A stretch of 64,000 bases of DNA from Myxococcaceae bacterium (GCA_017881265.1 JADGRA010000021.1:1-64000); one strand, 5' to 3'. Positions 7,069 to 54,628 are shown, numbered from the stretch's first letter. The notes: generated by a model from the sequence alone, not told the origin. Numbers and translations: made by a program.

Positions 7069-7550
7069 GCAGGCGTCTTTTGGGGCTGACCCTCGGCCTT
7101 CTTCTGCTGTCGCCCCCGGCCCGGGCCCAGAGCGGCGAGGGTGAGGCCACGGCGCGCTTTCAGAGTCTCTCCGAGGAGCAGAAGGAGGTCCTGCGCCAGC
7201 GGCTGCGCGAGTTCAAGGCGCTCCCGGCGGAAGAGCAGTCCCGCATCCGCGAGAACCTGCGGCGCTTCCAGTCCCTGCCCCCGGAGGAGCGCGCCCGGGT
7301 GGTGGGCCACCTGCGCGCCTTCGAGAAGCTCTCCCCGGAGGCGCAAGCGGAGCTCCGCGCGTCGGCACACACCTTTCGTCAGCTTCCCCCCGCCGAGCAG
7401 GCGGAGGTGCGCAAGCGGTTTAGGGAATACTTGCAAGCAAACCCTGACCGCCGCGAGCAGCTGATCAAGAATCTCAAGCGGTGGAGGAGCATGACGCGCG
7501 AGGAGCGAGAGGAGATGCGCGAGCGGCTCCGGGAACGTCACCACAAGTGA
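7065..7550 (+). CDS. Periplasmic DUF3106-family protein
   Basis: A 161-residue protein with a cleavable signal peptide (SPPARAQ, cut near residue 22). The mature part is highly charged and helical, built of repeated elements of the form [40 protein letters not shown] and [17 protein letters not shown]. This is the DUF3106 pattern, a family of unknown function with a look recalling CpxP/Spy-like periplasmic helical proteins. It is third in the sigma/anti-sigma operon, so a role in envelope stress sensing is a reasonable inference. Its stop overlaps the following GTG start. Confidence 0.8.
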
Positions 7551-7816
7551 CGCCATGCCGCCCGTGGGCGGCGTTCAGCTTCCTCCTCGTCGGCCTGACG
7601 GTGGCCGGGGCTTCCTGGGCCCTGCCCCTGCCGGACGCCGGGGCCTCGGGCGACGCCGGCCCGGCGCGCGCGGAGGACGCCGGGCGCCTGGCCGGCTTCG
7701 CGCCGGGCGACGGCGGCACCGAATTGGACCTGGAGGTGGTGGAGAACCTGGACCTCCTCGAGCACCTGGACGAGGCGCAGCTCTTGGAGTTGCTGCTTCC
7801 CGTCCGGGACGAGTAG
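7547..7816 (+). CDS. Small secreted or membrane-anchored acidic protein, last gene of the ECF operon
   Basis: An 89-residue protein. It starts at GTG 7547, which overlaps the previous stop (GTGA) and so suggests translational coupling. An N-terminal hydrophobic segment (AAFSFLLVGLTVAGASWA) is a signal peptide or anchor. The mature part is acidic and ends with a leucine/glutamate-rich helix (DLEVVENLDLLEHLDEAQ, then LLELLLPV). I recognise no domain. The gene context (sigma, anti-sigma, DUF3106) suggests an accessory part of the signalling unit. An upstream ATG at 7481 is in frame but lies within the DUF3106 gene. Confidence 0.65.
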   Translation: MTPCRPWAAFSFLLVGLTVAGASWALPLPDAGASGDAGPARAEDAGRLAGFAPGDGGTELDLEVVENLDLLEHLDEAQLLELLLPVRDE

Positions 7817-7829
7817 TCCCCCGGGGGAC
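7816..7829. terminator. GC-rich perfect palindrome between convergent genes, putative bidirectional terminator
   Basis: GTCCCCCGGGGGAC is a perfect 14-base palindrome. It begins at the last base of the ECF operon stop codon and lies 13 bases from the stop of the convergent kinase gene. There is no T-run, so this is a hairpin-only candidate. Confidence 0.4.
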
Positions 7830-7841
7830 AACCGCCGGGCT

Positions 7842-9020
7842 TCACGAAAGCCGCGGCGGCGGGGGGGCAGTGGCGCTGGGCAGGTGGATGCGGAAGCTCG
7901 CGCCCCCCTGTTCGGTGTGTTCCAGGCGGAGGTTCCCCCCGTGCTGGGCGATGATGGTCTGGACGATGGCCAGCCCCAGCCCCGAGCCCTGCGGCTTGGT
8001 GGTGAAGAAGGGCTGGAAAATCCGCTCGCGCAATTCCGGGTCGACGCCCTCCCCGTCGTCCTCCACGCGGAGCTCGACCTGCTCGCCGCCGGCCGAACGG
8101 GAAGTCACGCGGACCTCGCCGCCGGAAGGGCTCGCGTCCAGGGCATTGAGGACGAGGTTCAGCACCACCTCGCGCAGCCGCGATTCCACGCCGCGGGCCC
8201 GGAGGCCGGTTTCCAGTTGAAGCGAGAGCCGGACGCCCCGGCGCTCGGCGTCGGTGGACAAGAGGTCGGCCACGCGCTGCACCAGCGTCTCAACGACGAC
8301 GGGCTCGCGGGCGAGTTCATGCGGCCGGGCAAACTGCAGGAAGTCCTCGAGGAGGCGGTCGAGCCGGCGGATTTCGTCCCGCACCAGGACCAGCGGCTGG
8401 AGCGAATCGGCCTGGTCCTGTGGCGGCATGCGGCGGATGCGTCGCTCCAGGACGGCCAGCTGCAGCGTGGCCGCGTTGAGCGGGTTGCGAATCTCGTGCG
8501 AGAGGCCCGCGGTCAGCGTGCGCACCGCCTGCAGGCGCTGGACCTCGCGGTCCTCCTCGTAGCTGTGCAGCATGATGCCGAGCTCGACGTCCAGAATCCG
8601 GTCGAGGGCGGCACGCATGCGCCGGCCGCGCTCGGGCGGCTGAAGGCGCGCCTCGTCCAGCACGGTGGCCAGCTCCCTGCGGAGCAAGTCCATGCCGCCA
8701 AACATGTAGTGCTGCGGCAGGGCGATGCGGACGTGGGCCCGGCCGATGCGGGAGCGACGTTCAAAGTAGGCGGTGTCCCAGGGGCCGGCCAGCGTCGACT
8801 CCATCCACTGCACCAGAAGGCCCTTGAGGCGCCCGACGGTGACCTCGCCCCCCTCCAAGGCCTGCCGGGCATCGGCATGCTCGAGGATGCGGGCGTAGAA
8901 GACCTCGGAGATGTGGCCGAAGTGGGGGCGCGCCAGCGGGAGCAGCGCGTGCAGTGCCTCGGCGTCGTCCGGCCCGAAGCCGACGTAGACGAGCAGCTCC
9001 TCGAAGACGGACTGGGCCAT
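7842..9020 (-). CDS. Protoglobin-coupled sensor histidine kinase
   Basis: A protein of about 392 residues. Residues 5-155 match the globin-coupled-sensor (protoglobin) domain; His96 in RIGRAHVRIALP is the likely proximal haem ligand, so the protein probably binds O2, NO or CO. A HisKA domain follows with phospho-acceptor His175 (LSHEIRNPLN). Then comes a HATPase_c domain with the N box NLVLNALDAS, the G1 box DDGEGVDPE and the G2 box GSGLGLAIV. No membrane segment is present, so it is a soluble sensor. The start is uncertain: ATG 9020 fits the domain, ATG 9029 is also possible, and neither has a strong ribosome site. It lies 54 bases downstream of uspA on the same strand. A sigma54 response regulator at 11.7 kb is the obvious candidate partner. 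Confidence 0.88.
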   Translation of the reverse strand: MAQSVFEELLVYVGFGPDDAEALHALLPLARPHFGHISEVFYARILEHADARQALEGGEVTVGRLKGLLVQWMESTLAGPWDTAYFERRSRIGRAHVRIALPQHYMFGGMDLLRRELATVLDEARLQPPERGRRMRAALDRILDVELGIMLHSYEEDREVQRLQAVRTLTAGLSHEIRNPLNAATLQLAVLERRIRRMPPQDQADSLQPLVLVRDEIRRLDRLLEDFLQFARPHELAREPVVVETLVQRVADLLSTDAERRGVRLSLQLETGLRARGVESRLREVVLNLVLNALDASPSGGEVRVTSRSAGGEQVELRVEDDGEGVDPELRERIFQPFFTTKPQGSGLGLAIVQTIIAQHGGNLRLEHTEQGGASFRIHLPSATAPPPPRLS

Positions 9021-9074
9021 GCGCGGCATGCGGGCATATGCGCACCGGGCTCCCGGGCGCAAACCTCTCAGCGG

Positions 9075-9503
9075 CTAGGGCACCACCAGCACCGGCTTGG
9101 GGGAGATGTGGAGCAGCCGCGTGGTGACGCTGCCGAGGAAGACGCGCGCCATGGCCCCCTTGCCGGTGGTGCCGGCCACCACCAGGTCCACGTCGGCCCC
9201 GGTGGCCGCCTCGGCCACCTGCTCGGCCGGTGCACCCACCACCACGCGGGCGACCGCGGTGAGGCCACGTTTCTGCAGACCCTTCACCGCGTCGTCCACC
9301 AGGGCCTCGCCGGCCCGCTCCTCGGCGGCCAGCAGCTCCGCCCATCCGGCCAGGGCCGCCTCGGGCGGCGTCACCGGGATGTGGATGGCGTGCACCAGCG
9401 TGAGGCTGGAATGAAAAGCTGCGGCCAGCTCGGCAGCGAAGGAGAGCGCCCGGCGGGCAGGCGGAGAGGCGTCGTACGCAACCACAATGTGGCGGATGGG
9501 CAT
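9075..9503 (-). CDS. Single-domain universal stress protein (UspA family)
   Basis: A 142-residue protein of standard UspA size. It starts IRHIVVAYDASPPARRAL and ends with the ATP-binding motif G-x2-G-x9-G-S/T (Gly111, Gly114, Gly124-Ser125 in GTTGKGAMARVFLGS). Such proteins bind ATP and are commonly induced by hypoxia or stationary phase. The globin kinase gene follows after 54 bases, and the CoA-transferase/GNAT gene is divergent, 140 bases away. ATG 9503 was chosen because the Usp fold begins there. Confidence 0.92.
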   Translation of the reverse strand: MPIRHIVVAYDASPPARRALSFAAELAAAFHSSLTLVHAIHIPVTPPEAALAGWAELLAAEERAGEALVDDAVKGLQKRGLTAVARVVVGAPAEQVAEAATGADVDLVVAGTTGKGAMARVFLGSVTTRLLHISPKPVLVVP

Positions 9504-9557
9504 GGCAGAGAAGGGGCATTCAAGAGCCAGGCCAGCTGGCGCTTCCGGGGCAGGCTG

Positions 9558-9573
9558 TGGCACGCCGGGCGCA
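9558..9573 (+). promoter_or_regulatory. Putative sigma54 (-24/-12) promoter for the acetyl-CoA hydrolase/GNAT gene
   Basis: TGGCACG-CCGG-GCGCA has a perfect -24 element and the essential GG and GC doublets at the correct spacing. The -12 element is GCGCA rather than TTGCA. The predicted transcription start is near 9584, about 60 bases before the ATG at 9644. A sigma54-type response regulator is the next gene but one, which makes this credible. Confidence 0.6.
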
Positions 9574-9643
9574 AGGCTTGCGCCTTTCGGGCTGGCCGTG
9601 GACGTCGGGGTTCCGGCACACGGCCGTGGTAGGCCCCTCGGCC

Positions 9644-11524
9644 ATGTCGGCGACAATGCAGCGGGAGGCAGCGGCGGTGGATTGGAGGGAGCGCTTCGCA
9701 GAGCGCGTCACGACGGCCGAGGAGGCCATTCGCGCGCTGCGCCCGGGGCGCCGCATCTTCATCGGCTCAGGGGCCGCCGAGCCCCTGTCCCTGGTCGACG
9801 CCATGGTGCGGTTTGGGACGCAGCTGGCGGACAACGAAGTAGTGCACATCCTCACCCTCGGGCCAGCGCCCTACGCGGCGGCGGACTGCGCGGACCGCTT
9901 CCGGCACAACGCCTTCTTCATCGGCGCCAACACCCGGGCGGCCGTCCGGGAGGGCCGGGCGGACTTCACGCCCGTCTTCCTCTCGGAGATTCCGGCCCTG
10001 CTGCGCAGCGGACGCCGCCCGGTGGACGCGGCGCTGGTGCAGGTGAGCCTGCCGGACGCCGACGGCATCGCCAGCCTCGGCGTCAGCGTGGACGTGGTGC
10101 GCGCGGCGGTGGACTCGGCTCGCATCGTCATCGCCGAGGTGAACCCCCGCATGCCGCGCACCCGCGGCGACACCAAGCTCGACCTCCGCCGCTGCACCGC
10201 CCTGGTGCCGGTGGACGCACCGCTTCTGGAGCGGCCGCCGCCCGAGCCGGATGCCGTCAGCCGCGCCATTGGCGAAACCGTGGCGGACCTGGTGCCGCAC
10301 GGCGCCACCCTGCAGGTGGGCATCGGACGGGCCCCCTCGGCCATCCTGGCTGCCCTGCGCGAGCACCGGGACCTCGGGGTGCACACCGAGATGCTCTCCG
10401 ACGGCATCCTGGACCTGGTGAAGGCGGGGGCCATCTCCGGACGACGCAAGACGCTGCTGCCGGGCAAGCTGGTGGCCTCCTTCCTGATGGGCAGCCAGGC
10501 GCTGTACGACTGGGCGGACCAGAACGACTTGCTCCACTTGGCGCCCAGCGACTGGGTGAACGACCCGCAGGTCATCGCCCAGAACGACCGGATGGTCAGC
10601 ATCAACACCGCGCTGGGGGTGGACCTCACCGGCCAGGTGGCCGCAGACACGCTGGAAACCGGCTTCTACTCCGGCATCGGCGGACAGGTGGACTTCGTCC
10701 GCGGGGCCGCCCGCAGCCAGGGGGGCCACTCCCTGATTGTCTTCCCCTCCCTCGCCCGTGACGGCACGGTCAGCCGCATCCAGCCGGTGCTGCCGGAGGG
10801 GGCGGCGGTGGTGACCAGCCGCGGCGACGTGCGCTACGTGGTGACGGAGTACGGGGTCGCCGACTTGTGGGGCAAGTCGGTGCGCGAGCGCGCGCTGGCG
10901 CTGGTGGCCATCGCCCACCCGGACCACCGCGCCGACTTGCTGGCCGCCGCCAAGCAGCGGCGCTGGGTGCTGCCCGACCAGCCGCTGCCCAAGGTGCCCT
11001 TCGAGACGCGGGTCTGGAATGAGACCCTCCCCGACGGCACGCCGGTGCGGGTGCGCGCCGCCCGGCAGACCGACGAGAGCAAGGTGCATGCGCTGCTGTA
11101 TGCGCTGTCGCCGGAAAGCGTCTACCAGCGCTACTTCTCCACCCGGCAAATCCACCCGCGCTCCGAGGTCCTGGCGCTGCTGGACACCGACCCGCGCAGC
11201 AGTTGCGCACTGGTGGCCGAGCAGCTGGAGGATGGGAGCCTGCTCGGGATTGCCCGGTATGACTTGGACCTCACCAGCGGCATGGGGGAGCTGGGCATTG
11301 TGGTGGCCGAGGCCTGGCAGAAGCGGGGGGTGGGCTCGGCCCTGGCGCGGCGGCTGGTGGACGTGGGCAAGCGCCACGGGGTGAAGGGGCTGCGGGCCGA
11401 CGTGCTGGTGAGCAACCCCGGCATGGTGGGCGTTCTGCGCCGGGTCGGCCTCCGGGACGTCCCCCTGCCGGACGCCGGGGTGTACGCCCTCAAGTTCTAT
11501 TTCCCGGCCGACCCGCCTCCCTGA
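9644..11524 (+). CDS. Bifunctional acetyl-CoA hydrolase/CoA-transferase with C-terminal GNAT acetyltransferase
   Basis: A 626-residue fusion. Residues about 10-470 are an acetyl-CoA hydrolase/4-hydroxybutyrate CoA-transferase-type protein: ALRPGRRIFIGSGAAEP, VSLPDADGIASLGVSVD, LQVGIGRAPSAILAAL, LGVHTEMLSDGILDL, FYSGIGGQVDFVRGA and RYVVTEYGVADLWGK are all family landmarks. Residues about 480-620 are a GNAT N-acetyltransferase domain (IVVAEAWQKRGVGSALARRL is the acetyl-CoA-binding motif A). The hydrolase moves CoA between acetate and other acids; the GNAT target is unknown. Neighbours are a Usp/globin-kinase operon and a sigma54 regulator, and a sigma54 promoter candidate lies upstream. The start at ATG 9644 is a choice; ATG 9656 is possible, and no strong ribosome site is visible for either. 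Confidence 0.9.
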   Translation: MSATMQREAAAVDWRERFAERVTTAEEAIRALRPGRRIFIGSGAAEPLSLVDAMVRFGTQLADNEVVHILTLGPAPYAAADCADRFRHNAFFIGANTRAAVREGRADFTPVFLSEIPALLRSGRRPVDAALVQVSLPDADGIASLGVSVDVVRAAVDSARIVIAEVNPRMPRTRGDTKLDLRRCTALVPVDAPLLERPPPEPDAVSRAIGETVADLVPHGATLQVGIGRAPSAILAALREHRDLGVHTEMLSDGILDLVKAGAISGRRKTLLPGKLVASFLMGSQALYDWADQNDLLHLAPSDWVNDPQVIAQNDRMVSINTALGVDLTGQVAADTLETGFYSGIGGQVDFVRGAARSQGGHSLIVFPSLARDGTVSRIQPVLPEGAAVVTSRGDVRYVVTEYGVADLWGKSVRERALALVAIAHPDHRADLLAAAKQRRWVLPDQPLPKVPFETRVWNETLPDGTPVRVRAARQTDESKVHALLYALSPESVYQRYFSTRQIHPRSEVLALLDTDPRSSCALVAEQLEDGSLLGIARYDLDLTSGMGELGIVVAEAWQKRGVGSALARRLVDVGKRHGVKGLRADVLVSNPGMVGVLRRVGLRDVPLPDAGVYALKFYFPADPPP

Positions 11525-11654
11525 CGCAGCCGCTGCGCCTGCGCGGGTTGCCGCCGCAAACCTTGCGGGCCCACCCCCGCTTTCACCCTGTCGGGTGGCC
11601 AGGCGCGCTGTGTGCAATGTCTTCAGGCTTGCCGATGGCCTCACGGACGGACGG

Positions 11655-13129
<1,475 letters not shown>

Positions 13130-13133
<4 letters not shown>

Positions 13134-14407
13134 CGGTGCTGGCGGGCATCCGCTTCGTCGAAGCCGCCCAGGCCGCCGAGGCAGCGGCGGGGCTGGCCCG
13201 GCGACTGGAAGCGCCGCTGCACCTCATCCACGTGCTGCCGGGCGAGGCCGAGCAGGTGCCAGGGCTGGCCGCCCGGGCCTTCGTCCACGGCGCCCTCAGC
13301 ACGCTGGCGCGCCGGGTGGGGACCGGGCTGAACGTAACGGTGGAAGTGGCCAGCGGCGAGACGCACCTAGCGCTTCTGGCCGCCGTCGCGGAGAAGCACG
13401 CCTCCTTTCTGGTGGTGGGCCGTCCCCCGGGGGAGGCCGGACGCGGCGTCGGCGGCACGGTGGAGCGCCTCGCGGCGGCCTGCCCGGTGCCCATGCTGGT
13501 GGTGCCGGACGCACACCCCTTCTCCAGCTGGGGCGAGGGGCAGCCGCTGAAGGTGGTGGTGGGCGTCGACGCCTCCAGGCCCGCGCGCGCCGCCCTTTCC
13601 GTGGTGGAGCGCCTGGCGCGCGCCGGCCCGGTGGAACTGACGGCGGTGCGGATTGTCTACCCGCTGTTCGAATCCCGCCGCCTCGGCCTGCCCCTGCCAG
13701 TGGACTACCGGGAGCTCGGGCCGGAACTGGAAGCGGCGCTCGGCCGGGAGGTGGAGGAGGCCATTGCCGGCGCCCGCGCGGCGGCGCGGACCACCCACGT
13801 GCGCCTGCGCCCCAGTCTGGGGAGCGCGGCGGACCCGCTGTTGGCCGAGGCCGGCGAGGCGGGCGCGGACTTGCTCGCCCTGGGGACACACCACCGGCGC
13901 GCGCTCGCCCGGCTGTGGAGCGTCTCCGGCCCGGCGCTGCGTCACTCGCGCATGGCGGTCCTCACCGTCCCGGCCGGCACGGCGGCGGAGGAGGCGGCGG
14001 GCTTCTCCACGGTGGTGGCGGCGACGGACTTCTCCCCCTTGGGCGACGCGGCGGTGGCGCTGGGACGCGCGGCGCTGCGAGCGGGCGGCACCCTGCATCT
14101 CGTCCACGTGGCCAAAAGCCAGCCGTCGGCAGGGGAGGAGGCGGCCCTCCTCGGTCGGCTGCGCAGTCTGGTGCCGGCCCTGGACGAGGGCATCTCGGTG
14201 GAGGCGGAGGTGCGGGTGCGTCACCAGCCGGCCGGCGCGGACGAGGCGGCCTGCATTCTGCAGTCCGCCGAGCGCGTCGCCGCGAACCTAGTGGTGGTGG
14301 GCGCCAGCGGCCACTCGGTGCTGCGCAGCCGCCTCCTGGGGTCGGTGGCCACCAAGCTTCTGTCCAGCTCGCCGCTGCCCGTGCTGGTGGCCCGTCCGCC
14401 GGAGTAG
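13130..14407 (+). CDS. Triple-domain universal stress protein
   Basis: A 425-residue protein made of three UspA-like units in tandem: about 1-127, 138-283 (KVVVGVDASRPARAALSVV) and 290-423 (TVVAATDFSPLGDAAVAL). The last unit keeps the nucleotide-binding pattern VVGASGHSVLRSRLLGSVA. The first two have diverged at this site, so ATP binding may be limited to the C-terminal unit. Most Usp proteins have one or two units, so three is uncommon. The GTG start overlaps the stop of the sigma54 regulator gene, which implies translational coupling and a shared regulon. Confidence 0.88.
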
Positions 14408-14409
14408 TT

Positions 14410-14431
14410 GGGCCCCCTCCGGGGACGGCCC
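14410..14431. terminator. Putative terminator hairpin between convergent genes
   Basis: GGGCCCCCTCC-GGGGACGGCCC can fold as a GC-rich hairpin. It starts just after the stop of the triple-Usp gene and lies about 10 bases beyond the stop of the convergent cydB. No T-run is present. Confidence 0.4.
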
Positions 14432-14441
14432 GAAGGGGACG

Positions 14442-15488
14442 TCAGGGCGCCGGGGTCTCGGCCGGCACGCGCGTCGGCCCGCGGAAGGTGCGCGCCAGGT
14501 AGACGAAGTACGCGCAGGCGAGCGGGAGCCCGATGGCAGCCCACACCGTCGCGGCCCGCAGCGCGTAGGCGCCCGCCCCGGCGGCCTGCGCGGTGAGGTC
14601 GAAGCGCGGGCTGACGGTGGAGTGCAGCAGCACCGGCCAGCTGGCCGCCGCCGCGCTGGCCAGAAGGCCCACCAGCAAAAGGGCAGAGCTGCCGAAGGCC
14701 AGGGCCGCTGCCCCGCGGGACAGCCCGATGGCCAGGCCGCCCATGGCCACCGCCGTCACTAGCAGCGTCAGCCACACCAGCGGCCGCGCCAGGGCGGCGT
14801 CCACAAGCCCGGGCTGCACGCGCGCCGTCGCCCACGTCACGGCCAGCAGGACCACGGTACTGGCCACGTACAGAAGGCGAGCGGCCCGGGCGCTGCGCTG
14901 CTGGACGGGGCCTTCCGTCTTCCAGGCCAGAAACAGCCCGCCATGGGCGGCGAGGACGAGCAGCGTGAAGACGCCCACCAGGATGGTGTAGGCGTCCAGG
15001 ACGCCGGAGTGCAGCCCGGGCCAAAGGGAGTCGAAGAAGCCCAAGGCGAAGGTGCCGCTCTCGTCCAGGGGGACGCCGCGGATGACGTTTCCCAGGGCCG
15101 CGCCGAGGACGACCGCCAGCAGCGTGCTGCCGAGGGCGAAAACGACGTCCCAGAAGCCGCGCCACAGCGGGTTCTGCACGTGGCTGCGCACCTCGATGGA
15201 GACCCCGCGCAGCACCAGCAGCCACAGCACCAGGATGAGGGGCAAGTAGAAGCCCGAGAAGCCCACCGCGTAGGCGAGCGGGAAGGCCAGCACCAGCGCG
15301 CCGCCGCCCGCCAGAAGCCATACTTCATTGCCGTCCCACACCGGGCCAATGGCGGCTAGGACCGTCCGACGCTCGCGGTCCGAGCGGGCGACGAACAGAT
15401 GCAGTGCGCCCGAGCCCAAGTCGAAGCCGTCGAGCACCACGTAGACGGCGAGCATGACGGACACCACGCCGTACCAGAGCGCTTCCAT
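14442..15488 (-). CDS. cydB: Cytochrome bd ubiquinol oxidase subunit II
   Basis: A 348-residue polytopic membrane protein of the CydB family. The first helix MEALWYGVVSVMLAVYVVLD is followed by GFDLGSGALHLFV, then PVWDGNEVWLL, LVLRGVSIEVRS and FDSLWPGLHSGVLDAYTILVG, all typical. With CydA it forms the high-affinity oxidase that reduces O2 at low oxygen without pumping protons. The ATG overlaps the cydA stop by one base (TGATG), and a GGGGAGGG ribosome site lies inside the cydA end. It is last in the osmC-like/cydA/cydB operon. Confidence 0.95.
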   Translation of the reverse strand: MEALWYGVVSVMLAVYVVLDGFDLGSGALHLFVARSDRERRTVLAAIGPVWDGNEVWLLAGGGALVLAFPLAYAVGFSGFYLPLILVLWLLVLRGVSIEVRSHVQNPLWRGFWDVVFALGSTLLAVVLGAALGNVIRGVPLDESGTFALGFFDSLWPGLHSGVLDAYTILVGVFTLLVLAAHGGLFLAWKTEGPVQQRSARAARLLYVASTVVLLAVTWATARVQPGLVDAALARPLVWLTLLVTAVAMGGLAIGLSRGAAALAFGSSALLLVGLLASAAAASWPVLLHSTVSPRFDLTAQAAGAGAYALRAATVWAAIGLPLACAYFVYLARTFRGPTRVPAETPAP

Positions 15489-16864
15489 CACGCCCTCCCC
15501 TGGGCAGGCTGCGCCACGTCCGTCCGTCCCCCGGGGGACGGCGGCGCCGCCACCGGACCGTGCGCAATCTCCCGGCCCACCAGGTAGAGGAAGAGGAGCC
15601 CCACCACCAGGTACAGGCCGCAGAAGCCGAGGAAGGTGAAGATGGTGTCTCCGGCCTGCACCCGGGGGCTGGACGCCGCTGCGGTACGCATCAGCCCGTG
15701 GATGGCCCAGGGCTGCCGCCCCAGCTCGGCCGTCGTCCACCCGGCGGTGTTGGCGATGTAGGGGAAGGGAATGGCCAGCATCCACGTCCACAGCAGCCAG
15801 CGCGAGGAGAGCAGCTTCCCCTGGACGAGACGCGCCAGGGACACAAGTGCCAGGAGGATGAAGAGCGTCCCGAGGCCGGCCATCACATGGTAGGCGTAGT
15901 AGGTGAGTTCCATGTTGTCCGGCCACTGGTCATGCGGGACGTCGTTGAGGCCGAGCACGGTGCTGCCGAAGGAGCCGTAGGCGAGGAAGCTGAGGAGCCC
16001 CGGGACCTCGATGGGATTCTCCAGCCGCCCGGCGCGCACGTTGGGCTGGCCGATGAGGGCCAGCTTGGCGCCCGGGCCGCTGGTGAAGACGCCCTCCATG
16101 GCGGCCAGCGCCACCGGCTGGTGGTCGGCCACCAGCTTGCCCTGCCGGTCCCCGGTGGGAAACAGCTGCAGCACGGTGGCGATGGCGGCGGTGATGACGC
16201 CCACCCGCAGGCAGCGCACCGCCGCCTCCTGGTGCATTCCCATCAGCAGCCAGAAGGCGGAGATGCCCGAGACGACGAAGGCCGCCGTCACCACCGAGGC
16301 CGTCATGTTGTGCGCGTACTGCCACAGCGCCCAGGGGTTGAGGAGGAAGGCCCAGAAGTCCGACAGGACGAGGCGTCCGTCCAGGGCCCGGGAAAAGCCG
16401 ACCGGGTGCTGCATGAAGGCGTTGGTAGCGATGATGAAGTAGCCGCTTAGCCAGGAGCCGACGAGGAGGGCCACGGCGCTGGCGAAGTGCGCCCTGGGCG
16501 ACAGCCGTTGCTCGCCGTACAGGAAGAGGCCGAGGAAGGTGGATTCGAGGAAGAAGGCGAACATGCCCTCCATGGCCAGGGTGGTGCCGATGACACCGCC
16601 CGAGTACGCCGAGAAGCGGGCCCAGTTGGTGCCGAACTGGAACTCCATGGGGATGCCCGTCACCACGCCCACCGCGAAGTTGAGCGCAAAAATCTTCGCC
16701 CAGAAGCGCGCAGCAGCGTCCCACGCCGCCTCGCCGGTTTGGAGCGCGTACCACTTGAAGAGGACGATGAAGAGCGCGAGCCCCATCGTCAGCTGCGGGA
16801 AAAGGTAGTGGTAGGTGACGGTGAAGCCGAATTGCAGCCGGTGCCAGAAGAGGGGGTCGGTCAT
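15488..16864 (-). CDS. cydA: Cytochrome bd ubiquinol oxidase subunit I
   Basis: A 458-residue membrane protein carrying haems b558, b595 and d. It begins MTDPLFWHRLQFGFTVTYHY (the helix 1 region with the conserved His). It contains MEFQFGTNWARFSAYSGGVI, FLESTFLGLFLYGEQRLSP, NAFMQHPVGF and, after the quinol loop, GWTTAELGRQPWAIHGLMRT. It is shorter than E. coli CydA (about 522) with a short Q-loop, as in cyanide-insensitive (CioA-like) oxidases. The ATG at 16864 overlaps the upstream osmC-like stop by 4 bases (ATGA). A sigma54 promoter candidate at 17403-17418 would drive the operon. Confidence 0.95.
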   Translation of the reverse strand: MTDPLFWHRLQFGFTVTYHYLFPQLTMGLALFIVLFKWYALQTGEAAWDAAARFWAKIFALNFAVGVVTGIPMEFQFGTNWARFSAYSGGVIGTTLAMEGMFAFFLESTFLGLFLYGEQRLSPRAHFASAVALLVGSWLSGYFIIATNAFMQHPVGFSRALDGRLVLSDFWAFLLNPWALWQYAHNMTASVVTAAFVVSGISAFWLLMGMHQEAAVRCLRVGVITAAIATVLQLFPTGDRQGKLVADHQPVALAAMEGVFTSGPGAKLALIGQPNVRAGRLENPIEVPGLLSFLAYGSFGSTVLGLNDVPHDQWPDNMELTYYAYHVMAGLGTLFILLALVSLARLVQGKLLSSRWLLWTWMLAIPFPYIANTAGWTTAELGRQPWAIHGLMRTAAASSPRVQAGDTIFTFLGFCGLYLVVGLLFLYLVGREIAHGPVAAPPSPGGRTDVAQPAQGRA

Positions 16865-17364
16865 GGGCGAACGGAACCTCCAGGACTTGCGGGCCGAACC
16901 GACCAGAGCTCGACGGTGGGCTGCAGGGTGAGGGGGATGCGCAGCGCCCGGGCGGCCAGGCACCCCGCCGTCGCCTCGCCCAAGAGGGAGCGCGCCCGGG
17001 CCACGTCCTGGCAACGGTGCACGCCGACGCGCGGCTGGACGCAGACGTCGAGCAGGTCCGGCCCGGTCGTGCCCTCGCTCCAGCGCGCCTGCGCCGTGCT
17101 TTCATAGAAGGCCAGCTCCAGGCCCGCGCGCTCGGCACGGTAGACGAAGTCGGCGCGGACGCCCGCCTCCACCGCCGCCAGCAGCAGCGCGTCCACCGGC
17201 CAGCACGCCGGCGCGGCCAGCCCATGGGCGGCCACCTGGAGGGATGGCCCGTTGCAGGTGCTCAGCACCGCCGCTCCGGCCTCGGCGCGCAGCCACGTCC
17301 GCAGCACATGCACTGCCGCATGTGGGTGGCTCTCGGACCCAGCGCTTGGACGGAGTGGCTCCAT
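16861..17364 (-). CDS. OsmC/Ohr-family protein, first peroxidatic Cys not seen
   Basis: A 167-residue protein with the OsmC fold pattern: PVDALLLAAVEAGVRADFVY, ERAGLELAFYESTAQARW, then VCVQPRVGVHRCQDVARARS and a C-terminal LRIPLTLQPTV strand. OsmC/Ohr proteins reduce organic peroxides with two cysteines. Here the usual first Cys, after the ALLAAL-type helix (often GGC), aligns with EAGV, so it seems to be missing; Cys in TAGCLAA remains near the second site. It may have a different role. The ATG at 17364 has GGAAGGAAG about 13 bases upstream. It overlaps cydA by 4 bases, so it belongs to the bd-oxidase operon, an uncommon partner. Confidence 0.75.
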   Translation of the reverse strand: MEPLRPSAGSESHPHAAVHVLRTWLRAEAGAAVLSTCNGPSLQVAAHGLAAPACWPVDALLLAAVEAGVRADFVYRAERAGLELAFYESTAQARWSEGTTGPDLLDVCVQPRVGVHRCQDVARARSLLGEATAGCLAARALRIPLTLQPTVELWSVRPASPGGSVRP

Positions 17365-17402
17365 ACGGCGTGTCTGCTTCCTTCCGCGGCGTGCAAGCAC
17401 GC

Positions 17403-17418
17403 TGCACGCAGCGCGCCA
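17403..17418 (-). promoter_or_regulatory. Putative sigma54 (-24/-12) promoter for osmC-like/cydA/cydB
   Basis: On the minus strand the sequence is TGGCGCG-CTGC-GTGCA, against the consensus TGGCACG-N4-TTGCA. The invariant GG and GC are correctly spaced and only two positions differ. The predicted start near 17392 leaves a leader of about 28 bases that contains the ribosome site before the ATG at 17364. The geometry is very good and a sigma54 activator gene lies about 4 kb away. Confidence 0.65.
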
Positions 17419-17575
17419 GGGAGGCTTGCTGAGCAGCACACCGCTTGTTTCGGCTGCGAAGTGTTTACGCCCCGGGTGGGGTCCCGGGCAACCCGTGCGG
17501 CCCCGTGTGTACCGGGCTGTCCCGCGGGCGCTAGGCTTTGTTGCAAGCGTGTCTTCTGCTTGCCTTCAGGCCACC

Positions 17576-47945: not shown

Positions 47946-50213
47946 TCAGAAGTAGAGGGTCGCCGACGCGTAGACGCCGATGGGGTTTCCTGGGGTGAAG
48001 GTGATGCCCGTCACGGGAGCCTTCTGGCTGTAGGGGGCCTCGCTCACCTGGTAGGTGGTGGCGAACTGCGCCTCGCGGTAGGCGCTGTCGAGCAGGTTTT
48101 GGATGGAGAGCCCCACCTCGACGAAGCGCCAGCGGTAGGCGCCGTAGAGGTCCATGACGAAGTACCCTTGCGCGTAGAGGGTGCGGTCCGGCGTCGCGGG
48201 CCGGGCCCCCACCCAGCGGGCGCCGAGCCGCGCACGGAAGCCGTCGAAGCCGGCCGGGTGGAAGACGCTGAGCCCCGCCTGCCCGGTGAACGTCGGCGCC
48301 AGGGCCACGGCATTCCCGTTGCCGACGTCCGTCGTATAGACGGCATGGGCCAGGGAGATGTCGAGGTCGGCCCACAGCCAGCTGAGAATCTGGTAGCGCG
48401 CCTCGAAGTCGAAGCCGTAGCGCCGGGTGGAGCCGGCCTCCTGCGTCGTCCCGTCGTCGGGGTTGAAGACGAATTCGGACTGCAGGTAGAGGAACCACAG
48501 CGCGCCGGCCAAGTCGAGGCGGCCGTCCAGCAGCGACAGGCGCGTCCCGACCTCCGCTCCCCAGGCCCGCGGGAGCGCCCCGACGCCGTTGCTGTACACA
48601 ATCGCCCGCGCGTCGTTGCTGTGAAAGCCGCCCCCGGCGTCCAGGTAAAGGTCCCACGCCGGCACGGGCGTGAAGACGGCCTGCAGCTTGGGGTTGACGA
48701 TGGCCTTCTGGACGACGCCGGTGCCCTGGTTGGGGTTGGCGCCGGGGGGCGGGTTGGGGTTGTAGGGGAGCTGGTTGGTGACGTTCCACTCGAAGAGGTC
48801 CGCCCGCACGCCAAGCAGCACCCGGGCCCATCGGGCAAAGCGGACGTCCTCCTGGGCGAAGGCCGCCAGGTCCGACTGGAAAATGTCCGAATTGTCACAG
48901 GCGTTGGTCACGGCTGGCAGGTCCACCCCGTCCACGGTGCCGGCGGGCGTGCAGTCGGCCAGCCGCACCCGCTTCTGGACGTGCCACAGGGCGACGTTTA
49001 TCGAGTCCAGCCGCGCCTGGGCGCCCAGCGTCGTCACCGTGCGCACCTCGCCGGCGTCGATGCGCTTTCGGTACAACGCGTTGAAGCCGGCGTAGACGCG
49101 GCTGTCGTCCTGCTCAATCTCGTCGAAGTGCGCCGGGTCGACCAGCTGAAAGGTGAAGTCGTTGTAGAGGCGCAGCACGTAGCGCACGACGTAGGCCGTC
49201 AGGAGAATCTGGTCCGCCGGGCTGGGGCGACTCTCAAGCGACAGCACCAGCATCTGCCGCTGAGTCTGGCCCCCCTCGGTGGGGTCGATGGAGCCGAAGC
49301 GGTTGAGCTGCCCGGAGTCCACGAAGAGGGCCGGGATTTGCCCGCTCGCGCTCCACTGGGAACCGTAGGCCGTGGCCAGGATGCTGATGCGCGTCGTCGG
49401 CGACACGTTGAACGTCGATTTGAAGAACAGGTTGTAGCGGAGCAACCCCTCCGGGGAGAGGAACGGGCCGTTGGTTCCGTCGACCTCCGCGGCGAACCAC
49501 GTCGGTGAGTCCTTTCCGAAGGGGCTCGCCACGCCGAGGACCCGCCAGGTGTCGAAGGAGCCGTACTCGCCCGTCACCGAGCTCTCGGGGAAGCTGCGCC
49601 TCGTGAGGAGATTCACCGCGCCGGCCGTGTCGAAGTCGCCCGTCTCGACGAAGTAGGGGCCCTTCGTCACCTGCACCCGGTCGATGGTCTCCGGGATGAG
49701 GAAGTGCAGGTCCGCGAAACCCTGCCCGTGCCCGTTGCTCGGAAGGTTGATGGGGACGCCGTCGATGTACAGCGCCACGTCGGTCCCGTGGTCCGCGTCG
49801 AAGCCACGCAGAAACAGCTGGTCGGCCTTTCCGCCCCCCTGGTGCTGGGCGATGACCAGTCCCGGGACGACGCGCAGGATGTCCTCGGGCGTCGGGTAGA
49901 AGCGCAGCTCGAGGTCCCGTTCCCGGATGGTGTCCGCCGAGGCGGCCGTGGTGGGAGCGGGCGCCTCCACCCGCGTCTCGAAGACGGACTTCTGAGACTC
50001 GGGCCGAGGCACGACGGGAGCCCCGGGGACGGACGCACCGGGCGGCGGGAGCGCAGATTCCTGGGGCATCTCCGACGGCAGCGCAGACGGGCCCGCTGCC
50101 GGCACGCCGGAGGAGACGGACGAGGGCTCTTGCGGCGGCAGCGCCTGCGCGCGCGCGCGAACGCCCGCGAGCAGAAGGACGAGCGCAAGGCCCGCCCGGA
50201 CAGACGGAGGCAT
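47946..50213 (-). CDS. TonB-dependent outer-membrane receptor
   Basis: A 755-residue protein. A signal peptide (RAGLALVLLLAGVRARA) is followed by a Pro/Ser/Ala-rich linker of about 55 residues and a TonB-box-like stretch (SVFETRVEAP). The plug domain has YPTPEDILRVVPGLVIAQHQ, then GGGKADQLFLRGFDADHGTD, YIDGVPINLP and IDRVQVTKGPYFVETGDF. The 22-strand barrel ends in the expected aromatic residue (SATLYF). It imports a scarce ligand using TonB energy; the ligand is unknown. The small membrane protein gene upstream on the same strand and the divergent HupE/DUF4331 genes are the likely partners. Confidence 0.93.
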   Translation of the reverse strand: MPPSVRAGLALVLLLAGVRARAQALPPQEPSSVSSGVPAAGPSALPSEMPQESALPPPGASVPGAPVVPRPESQKSVFETRVEAPAPTTAASADTIRERDLELRFYPTPEDILRVVPGLVIAQHQGGGKADQLFLRGFDADHGTDVALYIDGVPINLPSNGHGQGFADLHFLIPETIDRVQVTKGPYFVETGDFDTAGAVNLLTRRSFPESSVTGEYGSFDTWRVLGVASPFGKDSPTWFAAEVDGTNGPFLSPEGLLRYNLFFKSTFNVSPTTRISILATAYGSQWSASGQIPALFVDSGQLNRFGSIDPTEGGQTQRQMLVLSLESRPSPADQILLTAYVVRYVLRLYNDFTFQLVDPAHFDEIEQDDSRVYAGFNALYRKRIDAGEVRTVTTLGAQARLDSINVALWHVQKRVRLADCTPAGTVDGVDLPAVTNACDNSDIFQSDLAAFAQEDVRFARWARVLLGVRADLFEWNVTNQLPYNPNPPPGANPNQGTGVVQKAIVNPKLQAVFTPVPAWDLYLDAGGGFHSNDARAIVYSNGVGALPRAWGAEVGTRLSLLDGRLDLAGALWFLYLQSEFVFNPDDGTTQEAGSTRRYGFDFEARYQILSWLWADLDISLAHAVYTTDVGNGNAVALAPTFTGQAGLSVFHPAGFDGFRARLGARWVGARPATPDRTLYAQGYFVMDLYGAYRWRFVEVGLSIQNLLDSAYREAQFATTYQVSEAPYSQKAPVTGITFTPGNPIGVYASATLYF

Positions 50214-50274
50214 GAAAATCCCAAGGGGGGATGGCGAGGGGAGTGGCGGACGACGCTCGAGACGTCGTCTGCCG

Positions 50275-50655
50275 CTACGGAGCGCCGGCGACGGCCGGCC
50301 GCCACCACCGGGGCAGCAGCGGCGTGCGCCAGGCCGGTGCGGCCAGCGTCCACACGCGCTGCAGGAGGAGCGCCACCGCCAGGCACACCGCCGTCGCCGA
50401 GACGGCCAGCTGCAGGTGCTCGGGCGCACCGGGTGCGTGACGGTGGGTGGGCGCCGCGTCGCCCCGGGTGGGCCGCGCGGGGCGAGCGCTCAGGGCGTGC
50501 CGGAGCCAGCTCTGCTCGGCGCTGTCGCGCACGCGGGGTTCCCCGTGGGCCAGCACCGCGTGGGCAAGCGGCCCGAGCCCCAGGCCCCAGCCTAACAGCA
50601 GAAGTGCAAGGGGGGCTGCCCGCTGGCGACGCTGTCGCTCAGGGGAAGCAAGCAT
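50275..50655 (-). CDS. Small membrane protein upstream of the TonB receptor
   Basis: 126 residues from ATG 50655 (ATG 50679 is also possible). An N-terminal hydrophobic segment (APLALLLLGWGLGLGPLAHA) is a signal peptide or span. A short loop with His residues (THRHAPGAPEH) and a second span (LAVSATAVCLAVALLLQRVW) follow. I recognise no family. It is 61 bases upstream of the TonB receptor gene and divergent from the HupE-like gene. The topology would suit a small accessory to an uptake system. Confidence 0.6.
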   Translation of the reverse strand: MLASPERQRRQRAAPLALLLLGWGLGLGPLAHAVLAHGEPRVRDSAEQSWLRHALSARPARPTRGDAAPTHRHAPGAPEHLQLAVSATAVCLAVALLLQRVWTLAAPAWRTPLLPRWWRPAVAGAP

Positions 50656-50793
50656 GGAGGTTACCCCGGCGCGGCCCATGGTCCCTCAGGCTCCATTACG
50701 CAGACCCCTGCCCGCCGGATGCAAACAAAAAGGGCCCAGCGGTGCTGCACGCTTGCGTCCGGGAGCGCGTCAGCTTGCGTACAGTGCCTTGCC

Positions 50794-51885
50794 ATGGTGC
50801 CCACCGTCCGCGCTCGGCGCGCCGCCCGTCGTACCGGGACGGCCTTGCTGGCCCTGGCCCTGCTGCTGCGCGGGCCGGCAGCCCACGGTCACCTGACGCG
50901 CGTCTCCACGAGTGAGTGGAAGCTCGAGGAGGCCGCCGCCACCGCTGAGCTGCAATTTTTCCAAGGAGACTTCGTCGGGCTGATTCCCCCGGGACTCCCC
51001 GAGGCCGAGGTCGCCGCCCGGGTTCTCTCGCTGGTCACCGACACCGCATCCGTCCGGACGCGCCTGGGCCCGTGTTCGCTCGGGGCCCACGCGGTCGCCC
51101 CGAGCGGGGACGGCTGGACCATCCGGGCGCGCTGGAGCTGCCCCGGCGGCGGCGAGCAGTGGTCGGTGAAACTGGGCGTGCTGGAGCTGTTCCCGGCCGG
51201 GCACACGCACCTGGCCCGGGTGACGACGGCGGACGGCGAGGTGGTGGAGCGCATTGCCCGCAGCTCGCTTCCGGCCTTTGACATCGACGTCCACCCATCC
51301 GTCTGGGCTGCCGCCTGGCGCTTCCTGCGCCTTGGCGTCGAGCACATTTTCACCGGGTATGACCACCTCGCCTTCCTGCTAGCGTTGTTGCTGCTCGGCG
51401 GGAAATTCCTGGACCTGGTGAAGATTGTCACCAGCTTCACCATCGCCCACTCGCTGACGCTGGCGCTCGCGGCACTCGGGATTGTCCATCCGCCCACTCG
51501 CTGGGTGGAGGCGCTCATCGCGGCGAGCATCGTGGCGGTCGCTGGGGAAAACCTCTGGGCCCTGCGCGGCGGACAGGGCGGTAGCGCGCGGGTGGCGAGC
51601 GCCCTCCGGCACCGCTGGCGCGTCACCTTCGTCTTCGGGCTGGTGCACGGGTTTGGCTTCGCCAGCGCGTTGCAGGAACTGGGGCTCCCGCGGTCCGCCC
51701 TGGTGGCGGGGCTGGTGTCCTTCAACCTCGGCGTCGAGTTGGGCCAGCTCACCGTCGTCGCGCTGGCCTTCCCCGTCCTCTCCTGGCTGCGGAGCCTGCG
51801 GCACTTCGTCCCGAAGGGGCCGCGCTTCCTCTCCGCGGCCATCGCCGCCTTCGGCCTGGTGCTGCTGGTCCTCCGGCTGGCCTGA
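50794..51885 (+). CDS. HupE/UreJ_2-family membrane protein with exported N-terminal domain
   Basis: 363 residues. A signal sequence (GTALLALALLLRGPAAHG) leads a beta-rich domain of about 150 residues (VSTSEWKLEEAAATAELQFF to VVERIARSSLPAFDIDVHPS). The C-terminal half has about six membrane helices with the signature LGVEHIFTGYDHLAFLLALL, then VTSFTIAHSLTLALA, VEALIAASIVAVAGENL and FGLVHGFGFASAL. This is the HupE/UreJ_2 branch, often suggested to move Ni, Co or other metals. Conserved His and Asp in the first helix fit metal handling. The ATG at 50794 was chosen; a TACAGT box lies about 15 bases upstream. The DUF4331 genes follow after 196 bases. Confidence 0.85.
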   Translation: MVPTVRARRAARRTGTALLALALLLRGPAAHGHLTRVSTSEWKLEEAAATAELQFFQGDFVGLIPPGLPEAEVAARVLSLVTDTASVRTRLGPCSLGAHAVAPSGDGWTIRARWSCPGGGEQWSVKLGVLELFPAGHTHLARVTTADGEVVERIARSSLPAFDIDVHPSVWAAAWRFLRLGVEHIFTGYDHLAFLLALLLLGGKFLDLVKIVTSFTIAHSLTLALAALGIVHPPTRWVEALIAASIVAVAGENLWALRGGQGGSARVASALRHRWRVTFVFGLVHGFGFASALQELGLPRSALVAGLVSFNLGVELGQLTVVALAFPVLSWLRSLRHFVPKGPRFLSAAIAAFGLVLLVLRLA

Positions 51886-52081
51886 AGCACGGCCAGCGCC
51901 CAAAGCGGCTCACCGCCCGTCTTCGCGGTCCCGCAGCGGCGAGAGGGCCCGGCCCGGCGCCGCCCCATGGTCCCGTCCGGGCCGCTCACCGCAGGGGGTC
52001 CATGCATCCGGCGCTGCGTGGCGACCGTACGAGGGCAGCGCGGTCCAGTTTCCACGCACAGACACCCTTGGGAGGAAGTCC

Positions 52082-52783
52082 ATGACTCTGAAGACAGTCG
52101 GGCGGGCGGCCATGGCCGTCGCCCTGTTCGCAGCGCCGCTGGCGCTGGCAGCCGACCACCAGGACGGGCCTGCTGCCACGGCCGACCCGTCGGCAGACAT
52201 CACCGACGTCTTTGCCTGGATGAGCCCCGATGCATCGAAGGTGAATCTGGTGATGGACGTCTACCCAGCCGCCACCACCGCGTCGCAATTTTCCAACTCG
52301 GTGCAGTACGTCTTCCACACCTCCAGCCATCCCACTTTCGGGGCGGCGGTGGCGTCCTCGGTCAACGTTATCTGCACCTTTGACGCCTCCCAGAAAATCA
52401 GCTGCTGGGCCGGCAGCGAGTACGTGACGGGCGACGCGAGCTCCACCAGCGGAATCTCCAGCGCCAGCGGCAAGCTCAAGGTGTTCGCCGGGCTGCGCGA
52501 CGACCCCTTCTATTTCAACCTCGCCGGCTTCAAGAACACCGTTGCCACGGTCACGTCCGCCAAGGGTTCGCTCGGCTTCGACAGCAACGGCTGTCCGCTG
52601 CTGGACGGGCCGACGTCGGCCTTGCTGGTGAACCAGCTGAAGACCGCCCCCGACGGCGGCGTGGCGGAGGACCATTTCCTTGGCCTGAACGCTCTCTCCA
52701 TCGTCGTCCAACTCGACAAGTCCACCCTCACCGCGGGCGGACCGCTGGTGAGCGTGTGGGCAGCCACCCACGTCGCACCGTGA
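52082..52783 (+). CDS. Secreted DUF4331-family protein (first of two)
   Basis: A 233-residue protein with a signal peptide (GRAAMAVALFAAPLALA). The mature N-terminus ADHQDGPAATADPSADITDV, then FAWMSPDASKVNLVMDVYPA, is the DUF4331 opening. The segment GLRDDPFYFNLAGFK is the other clear landmark. Full-length DUF4331 proteins are about 400-550 residues; this one is short and is followed by a second gene resembling the C-terminal part, as if the family is split in two here. Function is unknown. GGGAGGAAG precedes the ATG. Confidence 0.85.
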   Translation: MTLKTVGRAAMAVALFAAPLALAADHQDGPAATADPSADITDVFAWMSPDASKVNLVMDVYPAATTASQFSNSVQYVFHTSSHPTFGAAVASSVNVICTFDASQKISCWAGSEYVTGDASSTSGISSASGKLKVFAGLRDDPFYFNLAGFKNTVATVTSAKGSLGFDSNGCPLLDGPTSALLVNQLKTAPDGGVAEDHFLGLNALSIVVQLDKSTLTAGGPLVSVWAATHVAP

Positions 52784-52794
52784 GGAATCCCACC

Positions 52795-53397
52795 ATGAAG
52801 AACACTCGCACCACTCTCCTCGGCGTGCTCGTGCTCGCCGCCTGCAGCAGCTCCACCACGCCCACCACGCCCGCTGCACCGACGCTTGGCACGCGAATCG
52901 CCGACCGGATGGGACGGGCCGCGGTGAACACCGCCCTTACCAACCCGTTCGACACCGTCACGGGCAGCTCCCCCAATGCCGTGAAGGACGCCTACAACTC
53001 CGTCGCCGACCCGACGATGTGGAGCTCGATGTTCAAGGCCAACATCAAGTCGAACCTGGCCATTCTCGACGGCCTGGACGCCACCTGTGGCAACCAGCTC
53101 ATCGCCGACGCCACCTCGCCCCGCTACGACACGCTGGCCGGTGTCCTGGTCGACGACCAGCTGTACCTCAACACCGCCAGCGGGACCTGCCAGGTGTACC
53201 TCGGCGTCGAGGCCAACGCCGTCAACGCCATCCACAACTCCGACTGCGGCGGCCGGACGCCGCTGGAGAACACCATCGACGAGACGTACTCGCTGCTGGC
53301 GATTGGCATGGCGAGCGGCGTCACCAACGGCATCATCTCCGACACCGACCACACCGCCAGTCTGTCCGACTTTCCCTTCCTGCAGTCGCCCAACTGA
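52795..53397 (+). CDS. DUF4331-like lipoprotein (second of two)
   Basis: A 200-residue predicted lipoprotein with lipobox VLAAC (Cys at residue 17). It has TRIADRMGRAAVNTALTNPF, then DTVTGSSPNAVKDAYNSVAD and NIKSNLAILDGLDATCGNQL. This resembles the C-terminal portion of DUF4331 proteins, where an xxRMGRPxVN phrase occurs. It starts 11 bases after the first DUF4331 gene with a GAGG ribosome site, and the TPR lipoprotein gene follows 4 bases later, so the three form one transcript. Surface or periplasmic location is likely. Confidence 0.78.
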   Translation: MKNTRTTLLGVLVLAACSSSTTPTTPAAPTLGTRIADRMGRAAVNTALTNPFDTVTGSSPNAVKDAYNSVADPTMWSSMFKANIKSNLAILDGLDATCGNQLIADATSPRYDTLAGVLVDDQLYLNTASGTCQVYLGVEANAVNAIHNSDCGGRTPLENTIDETYSLLAIGMASGVTNGIISDTDHTASLSDFPFLQSPN

Positions 53398-53401
53398 AAA
53401 C

Positions 53402-54628
53402 GTGAAGACGGCCGGTGCCAGTTCGCTCGTGCTGTGCCTGCTGGCCGTGGCCGGCTGCCGGAGCTCCGCTCCGGCGCCGGGGGACCTCGGGGACGCGCTC
53501 CGGACAACGGAGGGCGCCCTCGCTGCGTCCAACCTCGACGCGTTGATTGCCGGACGTGAGGCACTGGTCAGCCGGGACTCCCGCTTCGCCTCGGAGCGAA
53601 TGGTGCTGGTCGATTTGCTCCAGACGCGCGGGCAGCTGTTCGGCCGCCTGGCGGACTATGACCGCGCCGAGGAGGTGGCCGAGGCCGCCGTCGCCCGGGC
53701 CCCACAGTTGCCCGAGTCCTGGCTGGCCCGGGCAAGCAACCGCCTGGCGCTCCACCGCTTCGACGAGGCGTTGCAGGACCTCGAGGAGGCCAATCGCCGG
53801 GGCGCCGAGAAGGACGCGGTCGAGGCCCTGCGGGCCTCAGCGCTTCTGGCCCAAGGGAAGACGGACGAGGCGCTTGCCTTGCGGCGCCACGCCGTCACGC
53901 GCTGGGCGAGCACCTCCAACCTGAGTGCCCTCGCCGTCGCCGAGATGGCGGCCGGCGACCTCGCGCAGGCCAGTGCCCAGCTGGACACGGCGGTGCGCGC
54001 CTACCATGACGTGGCGCCCTTTCCGCTGGCCTTCATCGACTTCCAACGCGGGCTGATTGCCGAGGAGGCGGGAACCCTCGACCGGGCGAGCGCTCGGTAC
54101 CAGGCGGTGCTGCGCCGTCTTCCAGCACACGTCCAGGCGGCAGCCCACCTCGCCGCCCTGGAGCTCGCGCGCGGGCATGCGGATGCCGCCGCCCGGGCGC
54201 TTTCCCCCTTCGCGTCCTCGGACGAGCCGGAGGTGATGGCGCTTCGCGCCGACTTCCTGGAGCGCCAGGCCCAGCCGCAACAGGCGGAGCTGCTGCGCGG
54301 GCGCGTCGAGGCGCGGTACCACTCGCTCGTCGCGCGTCACCCCGAGGCATTCGCCGACCACGCGGCGCGCTTCCTGTTGACGCGGGATGCGCCGCGGGCG
54401 CTCGAGCTCGCCCGGCGTAACCTCGCCATGCGGGCGACGCCGGCGGCCTACGACTTGGCGCTAACGGCGGCGCAGGCCGCAGGCGATGCCATGCTGCGCT
54501 GTCAGCTTGCGCAGCAGGCGCAACGCCTCCCGCACTCCACCGTTCGCCTGAAGGCGCTGGCGAGCAACGCCCTTTCGGCTTGCCCGCCCACGGCGCTTCC
54601 CGTGCTGGCGGGCGTCCCGTCTCGCTGA
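53402..54628 (+). CDS. TPR-repeat lipoprotein
   Basis: A protein of about 408 residues from GTG 53402. A signal peptide with lipobox AVAGC (Cys at residue 19) is followed by helical repeats: YDRAEEVAEAAVARAPQLPE, then RLALHRFDEALQDLEEANRR, VAEMAAGDLAQASAQLD and AEEAGTLDRASARYQAVLRR. These are tetratricopeptide repeats, which bind other proteins. It is the last gene of the HupE/DUF4331 cluster. The frame is open far upstream inside the previous gene, but the signal peptide and the adjacent stop at 53397 favour GTG 53402. Confidence 0.8.
   Translation: MKTAGASSLVLCLLAVAGCRSSAPAPGDLGDALRTTEGALAASNLDALIAGREALVSRDSRFASERMVLVDLLQTRGQLFGRLADYDRAEEVAEAAVARAPQLPESWLARASNRLALHRFDEALQDLEEANRRGAEKDAVEALRASALLAQGKTDEALALRRHAVTRWASTSNLSALAVAEMAAGDLAQASAQLDTAVRAYHDVAPFPLAFIDFQRGLIAEEAGTLDRASARYQAVLRRLPAHVQAAAHLAALELARGHADAAARALSPFASSDEPEVMALRADFLERQAQPQQAELLRGRVEARYHSLVARHPEAFADHAARFLLTRDAPRALELARRNLAMRATPAAYDLALTAAQAAGDAMLRCQLAQQAQRLPHSTVRLKALASNALSACPPTALPVLAGVPSR

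Follow-up and report, generated by a model that had tools for sequence, protein, structure and literature searches.

Six genes in the window (the whole 64,000-nucleotide stretch of Myxococcaceae DNA analysed here) may together form an envelope module that captures and relays Cu(II) and/or Ni(II), in which a DUF4331 protein, held to a membrane through its lipoprotein half, would serve as an ATCUN carrier; on the sequence evidence set out below we put the probability of this reading at about 0.5. At its centre is the predicted mature start of DUF4331, NH2-X-X-His, which we report as new, having found no earlier description of it and, in the literature collection searched, no paper on DUF4331. 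With a predicted free X-X-His end that is conserved across five or more phyla, the function of a common family becomes concretely and cheaply testable by biochemistry; if the reading is correct, an ATCUN carrier joins the recently described N-terminal-His permeases, and a copper or nickel route through the envelope becomes testable.

Organisation of the module

The genes comprise a leftward pair (the TonB-dependent receptor, TBDR, and a small two-span protein) and, divergent from it, a rightward run of four (HupE, the two halves of DUF4331 and a TPR lipoprotein):

47946..50213, minus strand: TBDR, 755 aa; Plug domain PF07715 (E=1e-16)
50275..50679, minus strand: small two-span protein, 134 aa; His-containing loop HRHAPGAPEHL; true start perhaps internal
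50794..51885, plus strand: HupE_UreJ_2 permease with a periplasmic N-terminal domain; PF13795 (E=1.5e-48)
52082..52783, plus strand: DUF4331 N-half, secreted, 233 aa; PF14224 (E=1.2e-20)
52795..53397, plus strand: DUF4331 C-half, lipoprotein, 200 aa; lipobox LVLAAC; assigned by hhalign
53402..54628, plus strand: TPR lipoprotein, 408 aa; GTG start; lipobox LLAVAGC; TPR families in Pfam

These six genes, their coordinates and their divergent layout had been given in a preliminary description and were all confirmed on re-analysis; the tight spacing described there for the last three genes was measured as 11 nt between the N-half and C-half and 4 nt between the C-half and the TPR gene, with 196 nt separating HupE from the N-half. 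For HupE, which stops at 51885, the ATG at 50794 is the likelier start, 50719 being open too. The host is probably a member of Myxococcota, its nearest named records being MAGs of Myxococcales and Polyangiaceae. That the three-gene cassette of N-half, C-half and TPR recurs in many genomes argues that the module is more than a chance arrangement. Searches of the region returned no Rfam elements and, for sigma-70 promoters and terminators, nothing above shuffled sequences; no operator common to TBDR and HupE was seen by eye.

In the mechanism that we propose, a metal chelate would pass the outer membrane by way of the TBDR and its small partner, and the secreted DUF4331 N-half would hold the metal at its mature N-terminus, where the free amine, a pair of backbone amides and the His3 imidazole would be the ligands. 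In a complex of the two halves, the lipoprotein C-half would complete the DUF4331 fold and provide a membrane tether, the TPR lipoprotein may act as an assembly or docking partner of DUF4331, and HupE would move the metal through the inner membrane.

A putative metal site at the N-terminus of DUF4331

With signal peptides judged by the -3,-1 rule, the window DUF4331 N-half has a signal-peptidase site (LALA/ADHQDGP, cleavage at the slash) that is predicted to leave a mature protein beginning NH2-Ala-Asp-His. Secreted DUF4331 N-termini with the motif number 85 distinct sequences, and in all 85 a signal-peptidase-type site lies directly before X-X-His. A wider pattern took in 91 sequences (24 clusters when grouped at 60% identity), of which 98% have a fitting site at the X-X-His offset, the next best cleavage offsets reaching 72-75%; about two thirds of sequences have a second small-x-Ala site two residues earlier. 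The two residues before the His vary (SSH, ADH, SDH and ASH occur), their number is constant, and across ten aligned full-length members, drawn from four phyla, no His but that of the motif is invariant. Nearly all DUF4331 proteins have the predicted site at this distance from the His; the motif is absent from a member in genome G030, part of a split DUF4331 pair (L053:9029-10359) that is perhaps degenerate, and near which no TPR partner was detected in the neighbourhood survey.

Four DUF4331 proteins without a signal peptide (L210:3616-6503, L211:3532-6113, L213:3594-6167 and L061:8188-11523) begin Met-(Ser/Ala)-Asp-His; three of these have no other upstream in-frame start codon, and the fourth has only a GTG 216 nt off. 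An initiator Met that precedes Ser or Ala is normally removed, so that these members would gain the same X-X-His end as the secreted ones. The three of them that are included in the tree may form a single clade (support 60/56) and may therefore count as one event. A DyP-like peroxidase gene precedes three of the four genes and a RoxA-like cytochrome c gene the other one; each of the four has a related TPR gene in its vicinity.

An N-terminal NH2-X-X-His is the ATCUN motif, a binder of Cu(II) and Ni(II) (PMC7701195, PMC12509749), and when set against ATCUN sites of the albumin type (PMC7701195) and the ATCUN-like motifs of PcoB (PMC12509749) the NH2-Ala-Asp-His predicted for the window fits, position 2 not being Pro. 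Unlike these known sites, the DUF4331 motif would arise by processing and be kept across a whole bacterial family. To judge by sequence, the predicted mature start of DUF4331 looks like a putative ATCUN site for Cu(II) or Ni(II). The N-terminal His might instead combine with acidic residues in a structural or other metal site (e.g. for Ca or Zn) within the fold, the fixed cleavage distance then reflecting a short N-terminus. Acidic residues after the His are indeed conserved (D65 and D68 in one alignment; D28, D39 and D42 in another), and the model of the N-half (pLDDT 71.8) is uncertain at its N-terminus; however, the residues that precede the His vary whilst their count is fixed, and the forms without a signal peptide reach the same end differently, as would be expected if the free amine matters, and we hold a site of this kind to be improbable. 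A comparison of the N-half model with the PDB gave no match at E<=0.001; a VHH match obtained with phmmer was judged to be due to chance.

Division of DUF4331 into two genes

DUF4331 is divided in the window into successive N-half and C-half genes, as the preliminary description had supposed. The N-half scores 74.6 bits against PF14224 (cut-off 27), the match being confined to positions 2-68 and 157-236 of the 421 in the profile, and the C-half lipoprotein has no direct Pfam match; in profile comparisons with hhalign, the N-half family aligns to columns 25-282 of full-length DUF4331 (probability 99.0, E=5e-18) and the C-half lipoprotein family to columns 300-476 (probability 93.4, E=2.5e-7). 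Because the halves thus map successively onto full-length DUF4331, and because the N- and C-parts share a single open frame in relatives (L057, L063 and L064), we take the split to be real. Both window halves join the DUF4331 family (PF14224) by these profile comparisons, whereas the majority of its members are single chains and the window has two genes, the second encoding a lipoprotein. In the split module of Croceicoccus, the N-half and the C-half each pass Pfam. On a tree built from the N-terminal part of DUF4331 the split state must have changed at least twice, with one split clade that includes the window and another made up of L062, L031/L060 and Croceicoccus. The two halves from L017, modelled as one chain with TAG read as Q, gave a pLDDT of 50.8, too poor to reveal a joint fold.

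The Croceicoccus C-half (L212:5570-6316) is, as judged by eye, apparently circularly permuted, its PNGRR part standing before its VDRMGMPAV part; the order of these parts in L062:5230-5946 is the opposite. An Acidobacteria MAG carries the split cassette twice in tandem (L017:8001-13073).

HupE and the choice of metal

By the -3,-1 rule the mature N-terminus of the window HupE is predicted to be His (cleavage PAA/HGH or AHG/H), and its His33 aligns with His1 of DUF4331-linked HupE. Its periplasmic domain holds conserved C94, C116 and H137 and its membrane part H184-X5-D190-H191; DUF4331-linked HupE proteins have the His in the same place, two conserved Cys, an equivalent of His137 and HX5DH. 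In HupE/UreJ-2 proteins the N-terminal 'anglerase' domains use His1 as a ligand to bind Cu (Kd 74 nM) and, in one case, Ni (220 nM) (PMC12537917). These proteins, like that of the window, are PF13795 permeases with an N-terminal periplasmic domain, which in the window is predicted to start with His as theirs do; the 2025 paper that describes them (Ang-1/Ang-2 with PF13795) makes no mention of DUF4331, a TPR lipoprotein or an ATCUN end (PMC12537917). A profile search of the window-type HupE against the PDB gave no solved-structure match (9GCE, the structure to which the beta-sandwich N-terminal domain of anglerases is related, was perhaps outside the searched set), and we therefore suggest that the window HupE would work like an anglerase, not that it is one: its N-terminal His domain appears to resemble anglerases in mode, and binding of Cu or Ni is predicted by this analogy.

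Both metals are kept as candidates. The anglerase affinities speak for copper, as does ATCUN chemistry; nickel is favoured by the replacement of HupE by NicO in some loci, by the [NiFe]-hydrogenase and urease that the host encodes, and by a DUF4198 neighbour in a relative, DUF4198 being Ni-binding with an N-terminal His (PMC12537917). The suggestion of metal uptake in the preliminary description is strengthened as far as a transition-metal role is concerned, by the anglerase-HupE paper, the exchange for NicO, the ATCUN-type start and the Ni enzymes of the host, whilst the identity of the metal and the direction of its movement, import or export, are points that we infer.

Genomic neighbourhoods of DUF4331

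Partner genes were counted within 6 kb in 83 DUF4331 loci with flanks, a set that is biased (mostly Myxococcota and plasmids), unweighted for relatedness and in part limited by flanks that end at contig ends. A TPR relative was present in 69 of the 83 loci, HupE in 34, NicO in 4, either transporter in 38, and HupE and TPR together in 32; the TPR model, which was trained on DUF4331-linked TPRs, matches one of 16 control loci (TBDR loci). The co-occurrence elsewhere on which the preliminary description had made its module depend is accordingly found for HupE and TPR; its wider view of the whole set, as a module reaching from the outer to the inner membrane, gains from this but loses the TBDR as a regular part, since a TBDR adjoins DUF4331 in only three of the 83 loci (the window, L060 and L133). 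A further TBDR match, in L127, was discarded as an overlapping-frame artefact that sits over HupE in another frame.

DUF4331 accompanied by TPR and by HupE or NicO was seen in Myxococcota, Pseudomonadota and Actinomycetota, and relatives of the module span at least five phyla. Plasmids of Marinobacter, Pseudoalteromonas, Comamonadaceae and Lichenicola combine DUF4331 and HupE with a TPR or hypothetical gene, and an Adhaeribacter plasmid has a TBDR divergent from DUF4331-TPR. Plasmids of Streptomyces and its relatives have DUF4331-TPR-NicO, the NicO nickel transporter (PF03824) occupying the place of HupE, although NicO is a separate transporter family that is absent from the window, where HupE matches PF13795 only. 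The cassette of N-half, lipoprotein half and TPR is also found in L016, L017, L019, L050, L051, L054-L056 and others, and on a plasmid of Croceicoccus (Alphaproteobacteria) the split module comes with HupE, an ECF sigma and an anti-sigma gene. Against a capture module stands the fact that HupE is missing near most split DUF4331 loci (it lies beside just two of about 14, in the window and in Croceicoccus) and a TBDR near nearly all.

The constancy of the TPR partner, far greater than that of HupE, would suit a different reading, in which DUF4331-TPR is a general oxidoreductase helper (a chaperone, or a redox or metal cofactor partner) or an envelope-stress module, HupE and the TBDR being optional and metal import as such no part of it. 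DUF4331-like genes adjoin LodA/LodB-like, RoxA-like cytochrome c and DyP-like genes, and ECF sigma and anti-sigma genes adjoin two modules, as this reading would have it; yet the presence of HupE or NicO near 38 of the 83 loci, in several phyla, is far above expectation for one or two genes per 10-Mb genome, and we consider a helper role unlikely as the whole explanation. The capture and relay of metal that we prefer for the window may, for its part, not hold as import family-wide: cytosolic DUF4331-TPR pairs beside DyP-like peroxidase genes, which are unexplained by metal import, show that DUF4331 has uses beyond serving a permease. Extended to the family, our proposal, which we offer tentatively and at rather less than even odds, is that DUF4331 is a widespread, unrecognised metalloprotein family that would gain an ATCUN site through processing (by signal peptidase outside the cell and Met aminopeptidase inside), would hand over Cu or Ni, aided by TPR proteins, to N-terminal-His permeases, and has been split in at least two lineages, with the lipoprotein half tethering the metal-carrying half.

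Some DUF4331-TPR pairs adjoin peroxidase-like or other oxidoreductase genes. In L063:8840-14334 and L064:8943-14314 a fused DUF4331-like frame lies beside genes for DUF4198, a FAD protein and a LodA-like oxidase (families assigned by a family scan in L063 and via shared clusters in L064); DUF4198, which adjoins the fused gene in L063, is a different family from DUF4331 and is absent from the window module.

The TonB-dependent receptor and the small two-span protein

The barrel part of the window TBDR matches TIGR01783 at residues 497-719, under the cut-off of that model. Relatives of the TBDR were sought in 60 relatives, and the closest (62% identical), in genome G151, is divergent from HupE, with the small protein present as well; in genome G006 it is a partial TBDR that likewise faces HupE. 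Since G151 and G006 carry HupE-DUF4331-TPR, in the gene order of the window, on other contigs (L157 and L068), the window looks like a TBDR-HupE set and a HupE-DUF4331-TPR set that have been joined. Solved relatives were uninformative as to the TBDR ligand, as the best matches (YncD/PqqU and BtuB) cover the plug only.

In the window and in L060 and L133, the presence of a TBDR next to DUF4331 could also be explained if DUF4331 were a secreted metal scavenger or adhesin outside the cell, the TBDR recovering the metal or a metallophore in a haemophore-like manner, and the type II secretion cluster that DUF4331 adjoins on Paracoccus and Sulfitobacter plasmids is in keeping with such export. Nearly all loci, however, are without a TBDR, and the window C-half is a lipoprotein, so that the pair is probably membrane-bound; we regard a scavenger or adhesin as very improbable here. 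In these plasmid stretches (L128 and L129, around 7250-17500), DUF4331 and the type II secretion genes are neighbours, and neither HupE nor TPR is present in the examined flanks.

The small protein of the window matches no Pfam family and has two hydrophobic spans and six His among its residues. Relatives of it lie upstream of related TBDRs, in the same place and with 45% identity in L194, and with weaker likeness in L197, L200, L202 and L203.
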